From a virus: DNA of 22,048 nucleotides. The position numbers were made by a program, and so were the translations under genes. This document shows positions 9,762-20,603 of this stretch, in pieces. Under the pieces are notes generated by a model that was given only the letters and a program-made list of their open reading frames with translations, made no database searches and had not been told where the DNA came from. Within the stretch, counting starts at the first letter, position 1. Every line of letters starts with the position of its first letter. The stretch spans positions 1-22,048 of IMG/VR virus record IMGVR_UViG_3300032092_000293; one strand, given 5' to 3'.

Positions 9762-10019
9762 TCAGTATATCTCAACCGGACGGTTGCCGTCTTTCTTCTT
9801 TACGACCATGAAAGCGCCACCCTTCTTGGCCTCCTTCGGCTTGCTAGGCCTGTTGGATTTACCAGCAGTGGAGAGAGCAATCGCGACGGCCTGTTTCACC
9901 GCTGCGGACTTGTTCTTCGGCTTGCTGGTTCCAATCTTTCCTTTTTCTTTGTACTTGGTGACCATCTCACCAATATTGGAGCTTACTGTTTTACGACTTG
10001 AGCCTTTTTTAAGCGGCAT
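9762..10019 (-). CDS. Small basic phage protein, DUF6496-like (85 aa)
   Basis: I start it at the ATG at 10019 because AAGGAGG lies 5 nt upstream; a further upstream start would extend it into the portal gene without a ribosome site. It reads MPLKKGSSRKTVSSNIGEMV and then contains KNKSAAVKQAVAIALSTAGK. The KQAVAIALS core is the hallmark of the small DUF6496 family, seen in many phages and bacteria (name from memory). It is very basic and Lys-rich, with no known function. The first 11 nt overlap the end of the portal gene, implying translational coupling. Confidence 0.68.
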   Translation of the reverse strand: MPLKKGSSRKTVSSNIGEMVTKYKEKGKIGTSKPKNKSAAVKQAVAIALSTAGKSNRPSKPKEAKKGGAFMVVKKKDGNRPVEIY

Positions 10020-12387
10020 TTCGGCCTCCTTGAGCGGGTGGTGTGTTCTGTGTTGCATTCATGCGCTCTCGGGCCACGCCGGCTCGCAGTTGTGCAATGT
10101 TCTCTTGTGACTTTACACGATTTTGCTGTGCCTGAGCATTCTGCGCAATCTTTTCTTGGTCGAGTGCGAGCTTCTGTTGATCCAACGCAAGTTTCTTGTT
10201 GTCGTTCTCGGCACGCTGTTGCAGTTCCTGCTTCTTGAGCTCCACCAGTGGGTCGCCCTGCTCTCCAGACAACTGGTTTTGCATGTCCCGAACCTCTTGC
10301 ATGAACAAAGCAACCTTCAACGCCACCATGCCCTCCTTTTGGATAGGAGAGACAATGCCGTCCGGGTCAGTGCCGTAGTTCTGGAACAGTTCTGCCTCCA
10401 CAGCTTCCTCCGCCTTGAGTCTCACGTGGTCCAGGATGTGCTTTTGCAGTGCCGTTGCCGCCATGGGGTTGGCCTGGAGAATGGGAGACAGGCCCATCAT
10501 CAGGTGACCGGCAATGTGCGCGTCATGCTGCTGACCAGCAAAGGCTTTCAAGCGCATGTTGTTGAGCACGTCGCTGTTTTCACTGGCCGGGTCCTTGGGC
10601 ATCTGGGTGTTTTGCGGCAACAAGATGCCGTCGATGTCCCGGACATTGAGCGCAGAGTACACGCGGTAGTACGCTTCGTACATGTCATGCATCTGTGGCG
10701 CGCTTTGAGCCATCTGCAACTGCGTTTGGGCCAAGGTAATGCGCTGGGCAGAGCTAAAGATGTTGGGATCAGCAACAGGCAGCACCGCCACCATGTTGTT
10801 GAAGTCCTTCTTCTTGATTGAGCGCGCGCCACCGGGTACATCGTACGGATAGTTGTCCGGCATGTACTCGCCAAAGCCCTTGGCAAGCATCTTGAACTCA
10901 AGACCTTGGGCATAGTGCAGGCGTTTGTGGATTGCCGACATGACAATCGAGCCACGCTCAAGCAATGCAAGGGTTGTTCCGACCTGTGCGTTTTGATTGG
11001 CGTCGCCAACCTGCATGTCTGCGGTGCTGGCCAGGCGTTTGCCCGCGTCAACCAAGAATCCAAGCAATGCAAACAAGGCTTGGCTCGGTTCTTTGTAGGG
11101 CAAAGGCAACAAAGAGGCCTGAAGTTCCGCGCCACCAGCGTCAATGTCTCGCCATTCGCCTGGTTGGATAGGACTATCGTTGTCCGCGATCCGCGCGCCC
11201 TTGGCCTTGAAGCCAGCAGGCAAGTTAGAGAGCGTTCCCGCGTCCAGAAGCTGGCGCAGAGCACTGGTTGCGCCCTTAGACAGGCCACCAACCATGTGAA
11301 CAAAGCCCATGCCGTACGCGCCAAGGCCTTCGACCAGCACGTAATGCACAAAATAGTCCTTGCGCACCTTCAATTCGTCGTCTTCGCTCCAGTTTCTACG
11401 TACGCCAACCACTTGCAGGCTGTCTTCAAGCATGGTGACGACGTATGGCAAGCGAATTTTGGTAGGTTCGCCGTCTTCGTCCTTGTCTTCAAAGCCAGGG
11501 ATGTCCAAATCCACTTGCATTTCCAACAAAAACACTTCTTCGACGTCGTCTGTAGGCTGCACACCCACAACTTTGTCCACGGCTTCTTGAATTTGCGTGG
11601 TGTCAGGCAGCATCGTCTGCGATTCAACGTCCACATCCAGGTATTCGCCGGACACAATGCGCTTTCTGAACTCATTTGAGTCCATTGCAATGCGGTGCGT
11701 GATCCGTGGGCACTGGCTCATGACGCTTGAGCCGTTGTACGGGATGTAAACATCGTCGGCCAAGCACAATTTGGAGACCATGCGGCCCAATTGGCGGTCG
11801 TAATACACCTTCTTGAACGAGGAACCGCCGTATCCAGTGTAGAAAAGCAACTGATCAAACTCAGGTGTGTACTCTTCCATCACCTGGGTGATCTGGTAGT
11901 TCATGAAATCTTGCACGCGAGAGGCCTGTTGAGCCTTTTCTACCGTCTCACGGCCGACGATTTGCGTGCGAACAGGGCCGCCAGCAGGCATTAATTCCTT
12001 GAATGCCTGTGCCTGGAACTGCACGATGGCCTCTGTCAGCATTGGATGGGTCGCGCCCGACGCGCCCCTGAATGGCTTGGTGCGTTCTTCAAGCTTTAAG
12101 CCCAGCAAGTCCATGCCCTTGGAGTACATCTGCTCCCAGTCAGAGCGTGAAGACTTGTCAGCCTCGAACATCGCGCCGACATCCAGGGCGATCTGGCTCA
12201 AGTCGTCCTCATCAATGACCTCGGCCAAGTTGGCGTAGAAGTCAACTTCATCGGCATCGTCTTCACTCATGTTGATAACAGCACTGCCGTCGTCTTCCAA
12301 CACGATCTCGATGTCGGGCATCTCGTCCTCATTGTCGATGACGATGTCCAACTGAGGGGCTTGATTTACTGCTTTGTCTATGGGCAT
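10009..12387 (-). CDS. Portal protein (P22-like)
   Basis: A 792-residue protein of the size of P22-type portals (about 725). It has an acidic N-terminal stretch (DIVIDNEDEMPDIEIVLEDD, residues 14-33), then the portal core with KPFRGASGATHPMLTEAIVQ (104-123), FQAQAFKELMPAGGPVRTQI (124-143) and a clip/stem region further on. The C-terminal ninety or so residues are a Gln/Lys-rich coiled coil (KKLALDQQKLALDQEKIAQN) like the barrel of P22-like portals. It forms the dodecameric vertex through which terminase packages DNA. The ATG at 12387 lies in AAGAAAGAAAACCC, a weak ribosome site. The next gene overlaps its end. The family call is from recognition of the conserved core motifs. Confidence 0.85.
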   Translation of the reverse strand: MPIDKAVNQAPQLDIVIDNEDEMPDIEIVLEDDGSAVINMSEDDADEVDFYANLAEVIDEDDLSQIALDVGAMFEADKSSRSDWEQMYSKGMDLLGLKLEERTKPFRGASGATHPMLTEAIVQFQAQAFKELMPAGGPVRTQIVGRETVEKAQQASRVQDFMNYQITQVMEEYTPEFDQLLFYTGYGGSSFKKVYYDRQLGRMVSKLCLADDVYIPYNGSSVMSQCPRITHRIAMDSNEFRKRIVSGEYLDVDVESQTMLPDTTQIQEAVDKVVGVQPTDDVEEVFLLEMQVDLDIPGFEDKDEDGEPTKIRLPYVVTMLEDSLQVVGVRRNWSEDDELKVRKDYFVHYVLVEGLGAYGMGFVHMVGGLSKGATSALRQLLDAGTLSNLPAGFKAKGARIADNDSPIQPGEWRDIDAGGAELQASLLPLPYKEPSQALFALLGFLVDAGKRLASTADMQVGDANQNAQVGTTLALLERGSIVMSAIHKRLHYAQGLEFKMLAKGFGEYMPDNYPYDVPGGARSIKKKDFNNMVAVLPVADPNIFSSAQRITLAQTQLQMAQSAPQMHDMYEAYYRVYSALNVRDIDGILLPQNTQMPKDPASENSDVLNNMRLKAFAGQQHDAHIAGHLMMGLSPILQANPMAATALQKHILDHVRLKAEEAVEAELFQNYGTDPDGIVSPIQKEGMVALKVALFMQEVRDMQNQLSGEQGDPLVELKKQELQQRAENDNKKLALDQQKLALDQEKIAQNAQAQQNRVKSQENIAQLRAGVARERMNATQNTPPAQGGRNAA

Positions 12388-12399
12388 GGGTTTTCTTTC

Positions 12400-15300
12400 T
12401 TATGGACGGGGACGTCCAGACAAGTCCATCTTAAACTCTTCCAGTTTGGGAGTCAGATAACTATCGCTCTCTGCGATCTTATCCGGTTTAATGTAGGTCT
12501 TCAAGAAGGATAACACTTCGTTCTCTGCGTCCTTAGGAGCAACGTTACCTGTCTTAGCTCCATTGCCTTTGACCTGTTTCACGATGGTACTCATGGGCCC
12601 TAGCTCACGGCCTTCGGCTTTTGCGCGCACAATGTCGGACTCGGAGAGTACGCGGCCCAGTGGTCCTGTGTATGCTTTCTCCACCTGGACAGTAGTGAAC
12701 GGCTTGCCTTTTGAGTCGCGCAAAGTGTAGACCTGTACCTCTTCGCCTTCCTTGAAGCGGCGGTATTCCTTAGGTCCATAAGCGCCTCCCTTGGCATATC
12801 CGCCAACAGAGTGTCCAATGTATGCGCCTTCAATCGCAGTGGCTTCGTTGTCAAGGATACGGTGCCAAGTGAAGTTCTGTCCGTCTTTTTCAAAGTTCAT
12901 CAACGGCTCGCTCAGGCCCTGCTTCCAAGTTTTTTCTGGAATACGCTTTCCACTCTTTACAGCGTTAACCAGGTTCTGCGTATTGAACATGTCCAAGTTG
13001 TACCTGGCCGAGTTCTTAACCACGTCTTCAAAACGCATTTTGGTAATCTCTTTTGGAGACAACGTAGCCAGGTACTGGTTAATGTTCCTTGGTGACAACA
13101 AGTCCTCAAGCGCGCTCTTGTACGGCATGTCAATGTCATAGATCGGCTCGCTCGTCTGAATTGCTCTCTTGATATTTTCAGGCACAACACCCGGTACTTT
13201 GGTTTCGCCTATACCAAGTTCCTTGTATATGCGATTAATCATGTTTGATTCTTCGGGAGGCTGCTTATACAGGTTGTACAGTTCCTTGTATTCGTTCGGT
13301 ATGTAGTTGAGCAAGTCGTTGGACGCTTCTCCACCCCGTGGTCCTGTCAGGGATATCTTGGGGTTAATGAGGTTGGGGTCCATCCCGCCTGCCACCATCT
13401 TCTCGGTCACGTCCTCTGCCAATTGAGACTCGAGTTGACGGCCTCTGTCTCCCATGGTAGATGGGTAGGCTGGGTCAAAGAGAGGCTCTTTGGTATTGAA
13501 GGCCAGTCCTTTCAGTCCCGTCATCTCATCGTAGCGACGCGTCAAGTCTTCCAACGCCTGTGGGTACTTGGGGTAGAACCTTGACTCTCCAGTTACTGGA
13601 TCAACACGAGTCTTGCCTGCGCGTGTCTGCTCAATTGCATAGTCAGGAATCTGCTTTTGCAGGGCAGGGGTGCGAAGCTGGCCACTGATGATTTGGTTAA
13701 ATATAGGGTCACTTGGTGTGCCGTACTGACGTGTGAAATAGTTCTGTGCCTTGGAGCGCCAGAAGTTTTCAATGGCATCACCCATCTCGTTGGACAAGCC
13801 TGAGATGCTTGGGTTTGCACCAGCGTCAATCATCTTGTCTAATTTAGAAATAGGAGCATTGCTCTTTCCCGTTGACTGCACGCCGGTGAACGTCGTGCCG
13901 CCGCCTTCGGGGCGGACAGCAAAGGCTGGCTGTGGTGTGATGCCGCGCAGTGGCCCTTCATTGAACATGCCGCGCTCGACCTGGCGGGCAGCTTCCTTGC
14001 CAAGGTACTTTACCGCCGGAGTAGCCACTTCCTTGAGCATCCTTGCCGCAGGGCCTACCAGTGCCGCATTTCCTGCGACAAAGCCTTGCTCTGCCCGGCC
14101 AAGAATCTCTTTGCGCTTAGGGTGAAAGACACTAAATTGATTGGCCACTTCATCGGGCGGTGTACCAAGCAACGCGCCCTGAATGAACGCGTATGTCTGG
14201 GGGTCAGGAAGTTGATTGATGTCACGCTCGGTTGCAAGCTTTCTAGACTTAGCGCCTTGGCGTTGGATGTTTGTGTTCATCACAGGTTGATACCTGTTTA
14301 GCTCGGCTTGGTCAGCGGCTAATCGTTCGATCTGCTGAGGCGTGAGCCGTTCTCCGTCAGGGGGCGAACCATCAGCGCGTTTGACAGGGCCCTGCGAGCC
14401 ATACCTGCCCACCTTGTCTGACATGCCCGCAGGTTTACCGGTAGAAGCTTTCCCAGGGGATATCCCCTCTCGTGCCTGAAGCGCCATCTGACGCACGAGC
14501 GCCAGCAACTCTTCTTGGCTCTTGGACTTAGATGCAAGCTCAATACCTAAGCGGTTATTGTGGATGTCTTGCGTGTAGTCGGGAGACTCTTTCATCATGC
14601 CCATCTTTGAGCCAATAAAGCGAATGGGAGAAGTCTTAAGCTCATGCATCTGCCCAGCAAGTTCAGCGGTACCTGGGCCGTACTTGCGTGCCAAGGTAGC
14701 TGCGGCCAACATGTGTCTTGCCGAATCTTGTCGGTCATACTGGCCGTCTTCTTCAGGGAACATGTTTGCTGACTCTTGACGTGCATAGTCAGACACGCCG
14801 TACAGGCCAGGCAAATCTTCCTTGTCCGCTTCACCGCCTTTGGCCATGCCCGCTGGCTGGACAGGGGCCAATGGATCAAACCCTCCTAATTGTCTTTTTA
14901 AGGTGTCCCCTAGATAATATTTTTCGTATTTGTTGTACTCGTCTTCAGTAAGGAAGCGGCGGTTGTCCAAATTATTGTCCTTAATATATTTTTCTACCTT
15001 CGGGACTTCTTTAATATCCCGCAAGCCTGCTAAATGCAAGTCATTAACTGTTGACCAGTTGCCGCTGTTCAAAAAGTCCTGTACAAAAGGCTGCGCGTCT
15101 TCTGCTATGTAGCCATTAACCTGGCCTTTAATCTGGTTGATGCTAGGAGGCAGTTCGCCTACTACTTGATCTGCTGCTTTTTGGAAACTGTCCATCGGGC
15201 TAGGGGGACGGGCTCCCGACAATACCCTGTTTTCTGCATAAACGTTTGGGTTTTCAAAATACATTTTCTTGCCCAAAGCGTAGATTTCCTGTAGCTTTTC

Positions 15301-17055
15301 TTCAGGGATAGAGCCGTCTTGAAGCAGTTCCGCAGGAAAACTATAATTTTCTCCACGTGCGCGGGATTCAAGGCCGTAAGTGACATAGTCCAGAGGATGT
15401 TTTTCCTTAACCGTTTCAACTGTTGTATACCTTTTTCCCTGGTCGTCGGCCAACGAATAAACCTTTACGTCCCCGCTCTTAATGGCTTCCCAGCCGCCAT
15501 ATCCATATCCAGGACTTCCCTTGTTACCTGATTGAGGTGTCCAGTCGGGGTGTCCGGGCGGGGGTTCGTATCCGCGTACGGAGTGGCCCATGGCATCGGA
15601 CTCCGCAGCAAAGTAGCCAGGCTTGTCCAACTGCATCCACCTGAAGCCTTGCTCTGGATACTGCTTGTAAACAGGCACGCCCTCAAGAGACTGAATTTGG
15701 GCCTTCTTCATCTTGTCGGCCATATCCAAGTCATACTGATGCGTAAGACGCACGGCATCTTCCATGCTCAGTCCTCTGAGGCTGTCTGGGCTCAGGCGGC
15801 CTGTCGTCAGGCCCTCTTGTAGCACATCAATAATGTGGTTAAAGCCCAAGTCCTCCGGCCCACGTCCTGTATTCATCCCGCTTACCTTGGCAGTGGGGTT
15901 TTGCACTGCAAACTCTCCCCCAAACGCCCTAAGGGTTTCATCCAAATCAATCCTATCGGAGTAACCAAATGGGATCATCTCGTTATATGGCCCTACGTTG
16001 ATTGCGGCGTCGGCTCTGTTCTCCCACGCCTGTCCTCGGTCCGTCTTAGAAATAGGGGCTTGTTGCTCAATAGGTAGGCCGGCAGCTATTCGATTTGCAT
16101 TTGAAGTTACCTCTGCATTAACCGGCGTGTCAGGAAAAGGCAATATGCCTTCTTCCTCCGCTAACTTGCGTACAGGATCACTCGGTGTTGCCATTTTATT
16201 TTTAATGTATGGCGTCAGTTTCTTGTCAATCCACTTGTTCAAGGATTTAGCATTAGCTGGGTTGTCCAAACTCTCTGACTTGTACAATGGCCTTACAAAG
16301 TTCTCTACGCTTTTTCCCCCCTTCATCCAATTGCCGCCCTCTTCTTTGATGATGCTGGGAAAGAGGGATGACTCTTGTTCCGGGAACAACGATCTCGCAC
16401 TGGACGGGACTAGGTTATCTGCAGAGGACGCGCCTTTCTTTGCGCCAGACTTTAATGCCTTGCTGACCAATCCACCGAACTGAAAGGTTCTTGCCATCAA
16501 GGGGCCCGACTTCTCTAGGGTAGGCTGATCAAACATCACCGTATTAAAAGTGGGCTTCATCAGGCCCTTGCCTGCTCGTTGTGCTGCTTGGGCCTTGAGC
16601 TTGTATGCCTTTTCCAAAGCATCGTATTGCGAGCGAGCACTCGCAATCTGAATTAATTTGTCTTGTTCCGTTTGCGGCGCACCGAGTTCAGGAATGGCAG
16701 GATATAGGCCGGAGATGTCCAGGCTCATTTCCTTGGAACGCTTTGACTTGCCGCCCCCACCGCCCTTTGTCGATAACTGCTTGAGCATCAGCTTGGCAGT
16801 CTTCCTTTCAGGCGCATCCGATTCGCTAGGATACATAGGCGCATACGCCGTGTCCGCCTCGTCGGCCAACAAGAACTGATTCATCGACTCAACCGACTGA
16901 TCCAAAGACGCATCTCCGCCTTTGGCGTAATACTGGATATCTTCCTCTTCCACCTCGCCGCCCTCAGAGAACATCTGAGGCGCATACTCAGGAGGCTCGG
17001 ACGATGCAAGACTGTCAATGTCTAACTCATCATCAGGTAAATATTGTCCGTCCAT
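12400..17055 (-). CDS. Giant 1,551-residue protein with duplicated PcfJ-like region
   Basis: I start it at the ATG at 17055, where AGGG lies upstream; a TTG at 17070 lacks a site. The protein has an acidic N-terminus with GGEV and AKGG motifs. Two distant copies of one architecture follow. Copy A, about 248-680, has MATPSDPV at 288-295, MGHSVRGY at 489-496, VKVYSLADDQGKRYTTVE at 530-547, INQIKGQVNG at 639-648 and a W667/DLHLAGLRD end. Copy B, about 1094-1540, has YGTPSDPI at 1111-1118, IGHSVGGY at 1413-1420, VQVYTLRDSKGKPFTTVQVE at 1440-1459 and IVKQVKGNG at 1491-1499. The GxS/C-VGGY, YSLRD and QIKGK signatures recall PcfJ-like domains. Between them, at about 772-840, lies DSARHMLAAATLARKYG plus MHELK and DIHNNRLG, like DUF6973. 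The gene sits between terL and portal. Function unknown; an ejected or internal virion protein is one possibility. Confidence 0.75.
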   Translation of the reverse strand: MDGQYLPDDELDIDSLASSEPPEYAPQMFSEGGEVEEEDIQYYAKGGDASLDQSVESMNQFLLADEADTAYAPMYPSESDAPERKTAKLMLKQLSTKGGGGGKSKRSKEMSLDISGLYPAIPELGAPQTEQDKLIQIASARSQYDALEKAYKLKAQAAQRAGKGLMKPTFNTVMFDQPTLEKSGPLMARTFQFGGLVSKALKSGAKKGASSADNLVPSSARSLFPEQESSLFPSIIKEEGGNWMKGGKSVENFVRPLYKSESLDNPANAKSLNKWIDKKLTPYIKNKMATPSDPVRKLAEEEGILPFPDTPVNAEVTSNANRIAAGLPIEQQAPISKTDRGQAWENRADAAINVGPYNEMIPFGYSDRIDLDETLRAFGGEFAVQNPTAKVSGMNTGRGPEDLGFNHIIDVLQEGLTTGRLSPDSLRGLSMEDAVRLTHQYDLDMADKMKKAQIQSLEGVPVYKQYPEQGFRWMQLDKPGYFAAESDAMGHSVRGYEPPPGHPDWTPQSGNKGSPGYGYGGWEAIKSGDVKVYSLADDQGKRYTTVETVKEKHPLDYVTYGLESRARGENYSFPAELLQDGSIPEEKLQEIYALGKKMYFENPNVYAENRVLSGARPPSPMDSFQKAADQVVGELPPSINQIKGQVNGYIAEDAQPFVQDFLNSGNWSTVNDLHLAGLRDIKEVPKVEKYIKDNNLDNRRFLTEDEYNKYEKYYLGDTLKRQLGGFDPLAPVQPAGMAKGGEADKEDLPGLYGVSDYARQESANMFPEEDGQYDRQDSARHMLAAATLARKYGPGTAELAGQMHELKTSPIRFIGSKMGMMKESPDYTQDIHNNRLGIELASKSKSQEELLALVRQMALQAREGISPGKASTGKPAGMSDKVGRYGSQGPVKRADGSPPDGERLTPQQIERLAADQAELNRYQPVMNTNIQRQGAKSRKLATERDINQLPDPQTYAFIQGALLGTPPDEVANQFSVFHPKRKEILGRAEQGFVAGNAALVGPAARMLKEVATPAVKYLGKEAARQVERGMFNEGPLRGITPQPAFAVRPEGGGTTFTGVQSTGKSNAPISKLDKMIDAGANPSISGLSNEMGDAIENFWRSKAQNYFTRQYGTPSDPIFNQIISGQLRTPALQKQIPDYAIEQTRAGKTRVDPVTGESRFYPKYPQALEDLTRRYDEMTGLKGLAFNTKEPLFDPAYPSTMGDRGRQLESQLAEDVTEKMVAGGMDPNLINPKISLTGPRGGEASNDLLNYIPNEYKELYNLYKQPPEESNMINRIYKELGIGETKVPGVVPENIKRAIQTSEPIYDIDMPYKSALEDLLSPRNINQYLATLSPKEITKMRFEDVVKNSARYNLDMFNTQNLVNAVKSGKRIPEKTWKQGLSEPLMNFEKDGQNFTWHRILDNEATAIEGAYIGHSVGGYAKGGAYGPKEYRRFKEGEEVQVYTLRDSKGKPFTTVQVEKAYTGPLGRVLSESDIVRAKAEGRELGPMSTIVKQVKGNGAKTGNVAPKDAENEVLSFLKTYIKPDKIAESDSYLTPKLEEFKMDLSGRPRP

Positions 17056-17097
17056 GGTTCGCCCTAACAAAAAGGTGGTGTCAGGACATTTTATGCC

Positions 17098-18561
17098 CTA
17101 ATAGTACTCGGGCACAAGGTCTGGCACCGCATCATCTTCGCTGTCATCGGTGTGCAAAGAAATAAAGTTGCCAGAGCGAAAACGCATGAGCGCCTGCGTC
17201 GTTGAGTCAACCATGTCGTCATTGTCGCCGTTAGGGAACGCGGCGCACTCTTCAACCAAGGCTTCTGCCCATTCACGGTCCGGGGCCCATACCATGCCGG
17301 CCTCGAGTATCGGAGCCACAGAGTTGGCGCGGCTGATCTTGTCAGTACCCGCTCGTCGTCCACCAGGCGTGTACATCGTGACAGGGATTCCCATCTTGCG
17401 AAGTTCCTGCTGCAAAGTAACACCCGTCGCCTTGGCCTCGATCAGGACATTGTCTGGTTGCCAGTGGTCGTACTCGTCCTTGGCAATTCGCTTGAGTTCA
17501 GGGAAGTCCCACCTGCCACGCTTGACGTCAAGCAGTATCAGGTTAGCGCCTGAGTCTTCAGAGGGCTGGAATACGCCCCAGGTCGTGATCACCGAATAGT
17601 CAGCCGTCTCCTTCTTGCTGTAAGCAGTGTCGTAAGACTGGATGATGTACTCCACGACCGGCGGCTCGTCCTTTTGCCAGACCTGCCACCACTCACGTTT
17701 GAGAATAGCGCCCTCGTCATTGGTCGGTTGCTGTTGCCACTGGGCTTGCCACTTCTGTGGTGACAAGGAGGCCTTGACAGACAACAATTCCTCAACGCCC
17801 CAAAAGCCTGGCCATAGGGGTTTACCACTAGGCAGGATAGCAGGAAACTCAATCACCTCCCACTTGTCGGCCTTGTGGCTTGTCTGCTGTTTGATGAGGC
17901 GCGCGGTCAGGTCCTTGGTCCCCCACCTTGTCATCACAACGACAATCGCGCCGCCTGGCTGCAATCGCTGACGCGGGCCAGAGGTGTACCACTCCCAGGC
18001 GTTGTCTAGTGCAAGCTCCGACATGGCGTCTTGTTCAGAGTGTGGATCGTCAATGATCAAGAGGTCCGCGCCGCGTCCGGTCATTGCACCACCAACGCCG
18101 ACAGCGAAGTATTCGCCGCCCTTGTCTGTGTCCCATCGGCCGGCGGCCTTGGAGTCAGCCTGCAAAACAACCTTTGGGTAGATTTCCTTGTACTCGTCCG
18201 AGTCCATTAGGTTACGGACTTTGCGGCCAAAACGCACGGCCAGTTCGCCCGTGTGGGTCGCTTGAATGATCTTGGTTCGCGGTTTATTGCCCATGATGAA
18301 CGCCGGCAACAGGTAGGACGCAAACTCAGATTTGGTGTGCCGTGGCGGCATGTTGATGATCAGGCGCTTAAGCTTTCCAGTCATAACGCGGTTGAATGCA
18401 TCTGCCATTTTGGCATGATGATCGCCAATAATTGCCTCGGGCCAGACGTACTTTGTGAACAACATGAAATCTTTTTGGGCACTCTCCTGTGCCTCTAACC
18501 TAGCAAGACGGTACTCGAGCTTAAGGCGCTCTACTTCCATTTCATCGTTTGGTGTGTTCAT
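17098..18561 (-). CDS. terL: Large terminase subunit (DNA packaging ATPase-nuclease)
   Basis: A 487-residue TerL. The ATPase part has the Walker-A-like loop MPPRHTKSE (71-79), a Walker B LLIIDDPH (167-174) and a coupling-type motif VVVMTRWGTKD (207-217). The RNase-H-like nuclease has its acidic residues in SYDTAY (Asp311), IEAKATG (Glu375) and DNDDMVDS (Asp449, Asp452). All expected catalytic groups are present and the length is standard, so the enzyme looks active: it translocates and cuts concatemeric DNA at the portal. No small terminase gene is seen upstream. There is no clear Shine-Dalgarno site before the ATG at 18561; the parS palindrome occupies 18568-18583 where one would lie. The next gene starts 42 nt after its stop. 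Confidence 0.93.
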   Translation of the reverse strand: MNTPNDEMEVERLKLEYRLARLEAQESAQKDFMLFTKYVWPEAIIGDHHAKMADAFNRVMTGKLKRLIINMPPRHTKSEFASYLLPAFIMGNKPRTKIIQATHTGELAVRFGRKVRNLMDSDEYKEIYPKVVLQADSKAAGRWDTDKGGEYFAVGVGGAMTGRGADLLIIDDPHSEQDAMSELALDNAWEWYTSGPRQRLQPGGAIVVVMTRWGTKDLTARLIKQQTSHKADKWEVIEFPAILPSGKPLWPGFWGVEELLSVKASLSPQKWQAQWQQQPTNDEGAILKREWWQVWQKDEPPVVEYIIQSYDTAYSKKETADYSVITTWGVFQPSEDSGANLILLDVKRGRWDFPELKRIAKDEYDHWQPDNVLIEAKATGVTLQQELRKMGIPVTMYTPGGRRAGTDKISRANSVAPILEAGMVWAPDREWAEALVEECAAFPNGDNDDMVDSTTQALMRFRSGNFISLHTDDSEDDAVPDLVPEYY

Positions 18562-18567
18562 GCAGGA

Positions 18568-18583
18568 TGTTTCACGTGAAACA
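18568..18583. promoter_or_regulatory. parS: Perfect parS-type ParB-binding site
   Basis: TGTTTCACGTGAAACA is a perfect 16-bp palindrome identical to the well-known bacterial chromosomal parS consensus bound by ParB. It lies 6 nt upstream of the terL start codon. I see no ParA or ParB gene in the window, so any ParB would come from the host or from outside the window. An exact match of this length is very unlikely by chance in 22 kb. The transcript could also fold it as a 6-bp stem with an ACGT loop close to the terL start. Confidence 0.85.
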
Positions 18584-18800
18584 AAATAGTTTTGGAATTT
18601 GCAAAAATTTTTACACAGAAACGGAAATAAAGCAAAGGGGGCCTATTTTGGGGGCCGGGGGTCCAATTGTGTTTAGAGCCCCACAAACTGTGTGAAATCG
18701 GGCTAAAGCCTCCGGTAGGTCCGCCTGGGGGCCAAAAACCGGGGCCCGGGGTTAGTGAGTGCTTACTACCGCTAAAACGCCCGCCGGGACTCTACCCGGC

Positions 18801-19004
18801 CACCAGGTCGCGGGCCACGGCCCAGGGATCGCGGCCACCAGGGCGCGGATCGCTAACCTGGGCGATCGATACCAGGCACCAGGTCACCGGATCACAAACA
18901 CCAGGCCACCAGGCGCGCACGTGTAATGACAAACCAGGCAACGGGGACCAGGGCCACCGGCACCAGGTCATCGGCCGGGAGCGGCCACCAGGTCACCGGC
19001 CGGG
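18801..19004. repeat. Dispersed CACCAGGTC-type direct repeats
   Basis: CACCAGGTCATCGGCCGGG (18961-18979) recurs as CACCAGGTCACCGGCCGGG (18986-19004) with one mismatch and a 25-bp period. Shorter copies are CACCAGGTCACCGG (18877-18890) and CACCAGGTCGCGGG (18801-18814). Many other CCAGG motifs lie between them. Confidence 0.65.
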
Positions 19005-19029
19005 GACCACGGCCCAGGTCACCAGGCCC

Positions 19030-19110
19030 GCGAATAACTGCGAATGTATGTACGTACCTGGGAGCGAATAACTGCGAACGTATGTACATACCTGGGAGCG
19101 AATAACTGCG
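19030..19110. repeat. 34-bp tandem iteron-like repeats (2.4 copies)
   Basis: Two 34-bp units start at 19030 and 19064 and differ at two positions; a third starts at 19098 and stops after 13 bp. Each begins GCGAATAACTGCGAA and ends TACCTGGGA. The middle holds a palindromic core; in the second unit GTATGTACATAC is a perfect 12-bp palindrome, and in the first it is GTATGTACGTAC. Tandem units with an internal dyad suggest repeated protein-binding sites, such as iterons for a replication initiator or operators. Confidence 0.75.
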
Positions 19111-19212
19111 CGCCAGGCACCACGGCCACCGGCCCGCCAGGCGCGGCCCGTGCAACGGGGCCCGCGTAACTTCGCGCCAGGCCTGGGATTTTTACGTTCA
19201 CCAGCTGCGCCA

Positions 19213-19258
19213 CCGCAGCGGGAAAAACGCTGCGGGCGCTGCGGGAAAAACGCTGCGG
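19213..19258. repeat. CGCTGCGG repeats and hairpin
   Basis: CCGCAGCG (19213-19220) pairs with CGCTGCGG (19228-19235) across GGAAAAA, an 8-bp stem with a 7-nt loop. CGCTGCGG recurs at 19237-19244 and 19251-19258, the last pair again separated by an A-rich GAAAAA. There is no trailing T run on either strand, so it is not a usual terminator. Confidence 0.6.
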
Positions 19259-19447
19259 GTTTTCGGTACGGCGGGCGGGTTTTGACGTGAAACGGGGCGC
19301 GGACCACGCGCCAGGTTTACGGCCTGGGACCAGGTCCAAAAAACGCATGCGGTCCGGATAAGGGCGGCGGCCACCAGGGGCGCGGCCTGGCGGGTTTCGA
19401 TACGGGGCGAAAAACCGAAGTAAGCGAAAACGATATAACCGGCGCGA

Positions 19448-19477
19448 ATAAAAAAACCCGGCCAGGTGGCCGGGTTT
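19448..19477 (-). terminator. Intrinsic terminator after the DUF932 gene
   Basis: The transcript reads AAACCCGGCC, loop ACCT, GGCCGGGTTT, followed by more T residues. The 10-bp stem with a G/C-rich core and a U tract is a strong Rho-independent terminator. It lies about 23 nt after the DUF932 stop. A second hairpin-forming copy of GGCCAGGTGGCC (minus strand GGCCACCTGGCC) lies between it and the stop codon. Confidence 0.88.
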
Positions 19478-19499
19478 ACGGGGCCAGGTGGCCAGGGTT

Positions 19500-20591
19500 T
19501 TACACGTGCACGAGCTCTAACATGTCACCGGCCAGGGTTTCGAGCTCGACGCGTTCGGAGGTCCACGGGATCGAACGGGCGTACGCGGTGGCACCGGTCA
19601 CGGCATCCCAAATTGTCTCGATCGGGCGGCCTTCATCGATCACATGCGCGTGCTCGATGCGTTGCGCGACACGGGGCCCAAACCTGGTGGCCAGGAATTT
19701 ATCCACTTTATCTATCTTGGCCACCTGGGCACCGCGCAAAACCTGGTTAATGTTCCCGGCGGCCGCGTTACTGTAGGCCAACAGGGCCGGGGCCACTTCA
19801 TCGATAAAACGATCCGGCGCGCTCGCGGTGTGGCGGATCGCGATATCTTCGAGCTCATGAGCTCCCCATACGATCCGGTTCGCGCATACGTAGTCAAACA
19901 AAAACGTTTTAACGCGTAACGTGCCCGCGCCGGTTTCTGAATTACTGATAAAAAACCCGCGAGCGAGCTCGCCCGTTTTCCCGTCCCGGCGGCCTGGGAG
20001 CTCGATCCGGTTGGTTTCATCGGCCAGGAATACAAACATGTCCCGGTCACCGGCATACAACGTTGTATTTTTAATGTCCACTTGATCCAACGGGCGGCCC
20101 CAGGTACCGGGGACTTTGAAATCACCGGTCACCCCGTCCCCGAATCGATCCATTAATTCGCGCACAACGTCATCATTCCAAATGCGGCCATAACGCGGGC
20201 CGGTCATCGCGCGGAGCTCAGGCGTCCCATTGTTTGAAAGTAAAACGCCCACGTCCTGGGCGGAGCGGTCAACCTGAAAACCATAATTAAGACAATCGGC
20301 GGCCAGGGGAGCGGGTAAGGCGCGAAGATAACCGGCGGGCGCGCCGGTCAACTGCGCGGCCTGGCCAAAGGACCAATGCGTGGGTGAATACCCGTGGCCG
20401 TTCGGGCCTTCGATGATCAGGCCCTGGTTATCGTCCAACGGGACGGCGCGAAGCTTACGCGATGAAACCACGGCGGCGCGACTGATAGCGCGCTGGGTTT
20501 CAAGCATGGCCAACATACCAGGTAATGAAGTGAAACGTTCTTCGGCGGGACGTGTGGCCCATTGTTTCGAAGCTTGGGAGAGTGTAGACAT
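19500..20591 (-). CDS. DUF932 family protein (phage/plasmid type)
   Basis: I start it at the ATG at 20591 (MSTLSQASKQWATRP), with TTGGAA upstream; a TTG at 20603 would add four residues. The 363-residue product carries the DUF932 layout: GYSPTHWSFGQAAQLTG (68-84), a LRAMTGPRYGRIWNDDVV segment (127-143), FISNSETGAGTLRVKTFLFD (214-233) and CANRIVW (236-242) followed by an Arg-His pair at 253-254. DUF932 proteins are widespread on phages and plasmids, with no firmly established function that I know of; roles near DNA replication or recombination are often suggested from context. It stands between an AT-rich island and a strong terminator. The wording of its codons (many GGCC and CCTGG) matches its right-hand neighbours rather than the virion genes. 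Confidence 0.85.
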   Translation of the reverse strand: MSTLSQASKQWATRPAEERFTSLPGMLAMLETQRAISRAAVVSSRKLRAVPLDDNQGLIIEGPNGHGYSPTHWSFGQAAQLTGAPAGYLRALPAPLAADCLNYGFQVDRSAQDVGVLLSNNGTPELRAMTGPRYGRIWNDDVVRELMDRFGDGVTGDFKVPGTWGRPLDQVDIKNTTLYAGDRDMFVFLADETNRIELPGRRDGKTGELARGFFISNSETGAGTLRVKTFLFDYVCANRIVWGAHELEDIAIRHTASAPDRFIDEVAPALLAYSNAAAGNINQVLRGAQVAKIDKVDKFLATRFGPRVAQRIEHAHVIDEGRPIETIWDAVTGATAYARSIPWTSERVELETLAGDMLELVHV

Positions 20592-20603
20592 GATTAATTC
20601 CAA

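Follow-up and report, generated by a model that had tools for sequence, protein, structure and literature searches.

The window, by which we mean the whole stretch of DNA analysed (22,048 bases), is an incomplete virus record, 22 kb long compared with about 60 kb in its near-complete relatives, and it has a GC content of 53%. Its features that bear on this analysis are collected in table 1. The start codon of terL (ATG at 18561), whose position is common to the window phage and its closest relatives, is separated by only 6 nt (18562–18567) from a perfect 16-bp palindrome, TGTTTCACGTGAAACA, which is identical to the chromosomal parS site. An earlier sequence-only reading of this DNA had reported an exact parS ahead of terL with neither parA nor parB in view, and both statements are correct, the latter for a window that is itself a partial record. 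It had also called for a parS search of the whole record, and at up to three mismatches this one match is the only one in the 22,048 bases; by chance, this 16-mer would occur in 22 kb of sequence with a probability of about 5e-6. The interval between terL and the portal gene is filled by a 1556-aa open reading frame (12400–17070, minus strand) that has no PHROG match and a sub-threshold match only to DUF6973; the gene in the same slot of phage DSL-LC04 is annotated as PcfJ-like.

Table 1. Features of the window around the parS palindrome and the terL gene
Feature	Position	Strand	Remarks
Portal protein, lineage marker	10009..12387	-	PHROG 1216
terL, large terminase subunit, 487 aa	17098..18561	-	PHROG 38 E=1.9e-111; Pfam Terminase_6C
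Noncoding leader of ~0.94 kb, from terL to the DUF932 gene, with parS at its terL end	18562..19499		62% GC
Exact chromosomal parS palindrome TGTTTCACGTGAAACA (ParB recognition sequence)	18568..18583		Exact match; also at -22 of terL in L122-L125 and L127-L129
Conserved leader motif AAAGGGGGCC	18634..18643		In 16-18 of 31 dereplicated terL leaders, counted as overlapping 8-mers
Conserved leader element GGCTTTAGCCCGATTTCACA	18691..18710	-	Followed directly by parS in the sister clade; parS ~110 nt further on in the window
DUF932 / PHROG 1362 gene, upstream of the leader	19500..20603	-	

The terL leaders of the lineage have other conserved motifs that are not parS, AAAGGGGGCC and CCCGATTTCACA. 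The marine-clade counterpart of the former, which belongs to the window clade, is a conserved AGGGGCCCC immediately before the terL ATG, and conserved non-parS elements were noted also in the leaders of L027, L101 and L119. Positions 18700–19490 of the window form a GC-rich noncoding block with many CCAGG sequences and tandem repeats of 25 and 34 bp, and GTACGTAC-like palindromes lie within the tandem repeats at 19030–19110; this block is possibly a replication or packaging region. The GC skew of DSL-LC04 gave no clear origin beside terL. A hairpin in the leader RNA was considered and rejected, its folding being no stronger than that of shuffled sequences (z -0.65), and an Rfam search of the window had zero matches. 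The 22 nt that precede the ATG of terL contain no Shine-Dalgarno sequence, and many other genes in the window have one. The suggestion that parS had displaced or replaced this signal was not upheld, because relatives without parS at that place lack a Shine-Dalgarno sequence too.

The window phage belongs to the HTVC023P-type lineage, which is made up of abundant pelagiphages and their freshwater kin; its TerL and structural genes are homologous to those of the group, and the gene order is shared. Its nearest named phages by TerL identity are DSL-LC04 (76%), 023Pt_psg01 (62%), Pelagibacter phage HTVC027P (59%) and HTVC023P (57%). The HTVC023P-type group has been reported to be the most abundant of known pelagiphages, with about 7.6% of viromic reads (PMC12753301). 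The clade includes the freshwater phage DSL-LC04, for which the sequence record names Gammaproteobacteria as host. No tRNA clue to the host was found, and the search of bacterial genomes for a host returned one relative only, a phage contig (L207) with TGTTCCACGTGAAACC before terL in a Verrucomicrobia MAG (G056); its placement there may be a binning error. The same MAG also carries a chromosomal-looking pair of TGTTCCACGTGGAACA sites (C49) and a parB gene (C54). Segregation of an extrachromosomal prophage, one of the roles at first proposed for the site, is unlikely in this lineage, because one isolate belonging to it, HTVC027P, has been described as lytic (PMC12753301).

The exact palindrome is present at -22 in the seven closest relatives with leader sequence (at least 93%), and in relatives further removed parS-like sites are found at -8 to -119, immediately downstream of terL, or some 4 kb upstream of it. 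The expectation that related phages would have the palindrome at this position thus holds for the former, in which it is exactly there, and not for the others, which have it elsewhere. In a sample of 161 loci (1.29 Mb) chosen by terL first, 41 strict NGTTYCACGTGRAACN sites were found where 0.02 were expected, counts that are not independent events since the relatives share ancestry; 36 of these, in the window clade, precede terL by 22–105 bp, two are downstream of terL, and the other three, in the HTVC027P clade, are some 4 kb upstream of it. The CACGTG core with one or both parS arms is present at -8 to -100 in 22 of 31 dereplicated leaders (the chance expectation for the core alone is about 1.2 of 31). 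The sites differ among relatives at T/C positions, A/G positions and the ends, all of which are known to vary in parS, except in a minority of leaders that retain just the core and one arm, and so have a GTTCCAC/GTTTCAC half-site. The ParB proteins of some species, P. aeruginosa among them, bind such half-parS sites (PMC7022226).

The site also moves. In an alignment of the clade with the site near -100, the site has gone from the common column in L183/L187/L194 and L196/L197, which have a new one about 35 nt away, and sister phages have relocated it, from -93 in L165 to immediately after the terL stop codon in L148 (or the reverse) and similarly between -115 in L088 and -3759 in L023. A terL tree (a quick tree of 72 rows, from a sample part of which was picked for having the site) requires at least 12 changes in the presence of a site near terL. 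These losses matched by nearby gains constitute a turnover, which suggests that selection maintains a site in this region without fixing how far it is from the start codon. Near-complete relatives mostly have one site, a few have two or three, and several have none; relatives without a site are L132, L139, L146, L168, DSL-LC04, HTVC023P and 023Pt_psg01. Since several relatives lack any site, parS is dispensable. HTVC027P has a single site, CGTTTCACGTGAAACA at 16412, about 4 kb before terL; it and HTVC023P share the host HTCC1062, and of the two HTVC027P alone has parS.

Exact scans of viral contigs found parS in at least 120 stretches, and the second canonical parS form, TGTTCCACGTGGAACA, likewise in at least 120, whereas three matched control palindromes (the reversed order, the CACGTG core with other arms, and the parS arms with another core) were found in 1, 2 and 1 stretches, respectively; parS is thus enriched at least 60-fold in viral contigs over matched palindromes. 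The genes around these sites are largely phage genes. The parS in the window is not there by chance. Apart from the limits of a single record, nothing favours its being a chance sequence or stray host DNA, and this reading is scarcely credible; the control counts speak against it, as does conservation of the site among relatives with phage genes on both sides. Among 120 listed exact-parS contigs, 27 hold a TerL of the lineage (a more distant TerL group is present in addition), and in 14 of those 27 the site precedes terL by no more than 120 bp. Some 14 or more other listed contigs were assigned to the lineage on the basis of their portal, capsid, polymerase or other genes, and their sites occur at various places between terS and the capsid region and also further out. 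With the TGTTCCACGTGGAACA form there are 33 lineage members among 119 listed contigs, seven of them with the site at most 181 bp before terL.

Adjacency to terL as a general phage rule was rejected: outside the lineage it is seen in few of about 85 listed parS contigs, which is near chance. The non-lineage contigs with a packaging ATPase beside parS are L025, L078, L051 and L096. In L078 (1048–1063) and L025 (11019–11034), whose TerL family is PHROG 2, parS precedes terL by 2 nt and about 230 nt, respectively, and in the Phi29-like contigs L051 (9112–9127) and L096 (2786–2801) it is beside a gp16-type packaging ATPase with further parS-like sequences nearby. The distant TerL group (28–30% identity) has two to five exact parS sites near terL (L044:10535-11462, L017:2657-3444, L053:240-961, and L075 at 1843 and 3092); the five of L044 are within about 970 bp upstream of terL, and one of them is translated as MFHVKH where the listed terL frame begins. 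Exact parS is present as well in small contigs (4.4–4.7 kb) that encode a replication initiator of the microvirus type (PHROG 942), L006 (3842–3857) and L076 (2536–2551), the latter of which has a 99-bp terminal repeat. Roseobacter phage CRP-810 (OR671924.1, 24250–24265) has a parS-form palindrome, GTTCCACGTGGAAC, in coding sequence (gp35, just before gp34).

The phages of the lineage do not appear to bring their own reader of the site. No ParB_N domain was found in 19 relatives or in 35 records that combine parS with a terL relative, and neither HTH_ParB nor the ParA-type ATPase (AAA_31) was found in 24 relatives with near-complete or long sequences; the same searches recovered these families in most control genomes. 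No cognate parA/parB was found on the same replicon in the lineage relatives, the window itself being partial. Among 45 other parS-bearing contigs, four had a ParB_N match, two of them above the cut-off. Since the lineage relatives are without ParB- or ParA-type genes, the site must be read by a protein of the host, for which ParB is the simplest candidate. It is quite improbable that a protein other than ParB, a phage or host regulator, reads the palindrome as an operator of the terL region. ParB binding is, to be sure, a prediction from sequence, and AAAGGGGGCC and CCCGATTTCACA mark these leaders too, but the sequence and its variants coincide with those of parS, the second canonical form included, the site is common to unrelated phages, and it stands at varying distances from the start codon. 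Recruitment of host ParB, which the sequence-only reading had put forward among other roles, is the best reading of the site, given also that lost sites near terL have been replaced.

We consider it somewhat better than an even bet that the palindrome is a working chromosomal-type parS which loads host ParB, through which the phage genome would gain handling by host ParA and SMC; that the phage in some way borrows the host's chromosome-handling machinery seems very probable. ParB is established as a CTP-dependent clamp that loads at parS, slides to neighbouring DNA and is linked to ParA and SMC (PMC7053999, PMC8494293, PMC7333895). Dimers of host ParB would load at the phage parS as CTP clamps and slide onto flanking phage DNA, and the replicating phage genome would reach host ParA, which could position it, and SMC, which could individualise and compact the DNA. 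In P. aeruginosa a single parS can be enough for partition (PMC4368675). The sequence of the site, its conservation and turnover, the presence of mostly one site per genome, its bias to the terL region in the lineage and the lack of ParB- and ParA-type genes are the observations on which this rests; we infer from them that ParB binds and that the benefit is host ParA/SMC handling of phage DNA rather than terL regulation.

A role in genome handling alone would not lead one to expect the bias to terL. The strong preference for sites just upstream of terL in the lineage favours a reading in which host ParB at parS silences terL early and replication dilutes ParB per genome, releasing terL, so that the site acts as a copy-number timer for packaging. 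There are precedents in P. aeruginosa, where PA0011 and PA0013 are repressed by ParB at the intergenic parS3/parS4, and in S. pneumoniae, where a single parS affects comCDE 5 kb away (PMC7022226); long-range silencing by KorB, a ParB-family clamp, is another (PMC11790492). In HTVC027P (MN698241.1, 15768–17670) the parS at 16412 is flanked by gp30, gp33 and gp34, which the published transcriptome sets apart for their unusual timing (PMC12753301); this is suggestive, but it is correlation only. Against such silencing, sites are also found 1–5 kb from terL or downstream of it, parS is present in phages without such an arrangement, microviruses included, and the B. subtilis genes adjoining parS are unchanged on loss of Spo0J (PMC7022226). 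The wandering position and the presence in unrelated phages argue against a simple terL operator, and we think the timer rather unlikely. The earlier suggestion that ParB keeps terL silent until late in infection accordingly stands as a possibility that suits the terL bias and leaves unexplained the sites 1–5 kb off, those beyond terL and those in other kinds of phage. We entertain tentatively, as a possibility on the lower side, a broader view in which lytic phages of several unrelated kinds commandeer host ParB, with ParA/SMC, by means of parS, and in which ParB dilution by replication also times terminase expression in the HTVC023P type.

A decoy function, in which many phage copies of parS pull ParB off the host chromosome and so block host segregation and division, is improbable. 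Most genomes have one strong site, which replication would multiply, and phage ParB is absent, as a decoy would have it; titration, however, favours many sites without a preferred place, not one in the terL region, and a segregation block is hardly needed in a host that is killed.

If host ParB does load on phage genomes, chromosome segregation proteins would be direct players in lytic infection, and the placing, compaction and handover to packaging of lytic phage DNA would become testable. HTVC027P, with the site, and HTVC023P, without it, both grown on HTCC1062, are a ready natural comparison, and the 16-bp parS could serve as a tag for spotting phages that may depend on ParB. Chromosomal ParABS is missing from the Enterobacteriaceae and Pasteurellaceae (PMC7022226).

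In the literature searched, outside which were preprints and most subscription journals, no description of a phage parS without parB was found, and the paper on the HTVC023P-type pelagiphages (PMC9599517), with its 80 genomes of this type, does not mention parS or ParB. The TerL proteins of HTVC027P and HTVC023P (PMC9599517, PMC12753301) are 57–59% identical to that of the window over 92–95% of the length, and their order of terL, portal, GroES and capsid genes matches that of the window lineage, but the site of HTVC027P is 4 kb before terL and HTVC023P has none, whereas that of the window is 6 nt from the terL ATG. KorB of plasmid RK2, used for long-range silencing (PMC11790492), illustrates the effect that a ParB clamp could have close to a promoter; it is plasmid-encoded and has its own operators, whereas here the binder would be the host's. 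The closest likeness is to chromosomal parS of the ParABS-SMC system (ParB/Spo0J), whose 16-bp sequence is identical and which tolerates the same variants, the GTTCCAC/GTTTCAC half-sites among them; chromosomal parS lies near oriC, however, while the phage site lies beside terL in a lytic phage without parA/parB that presumably uses the host protein. Phage-plasmid partition systems such as P1 have their own type of parS. The P1-type parABS likewise places a centromere on a phage genome, but such systems encode their own parA and parB, while ParB_N, HTH_ParB and ParA-type domains were not found in the lineage here, and the site in the window is of the chromosomal type, unlike the P1-type parS.
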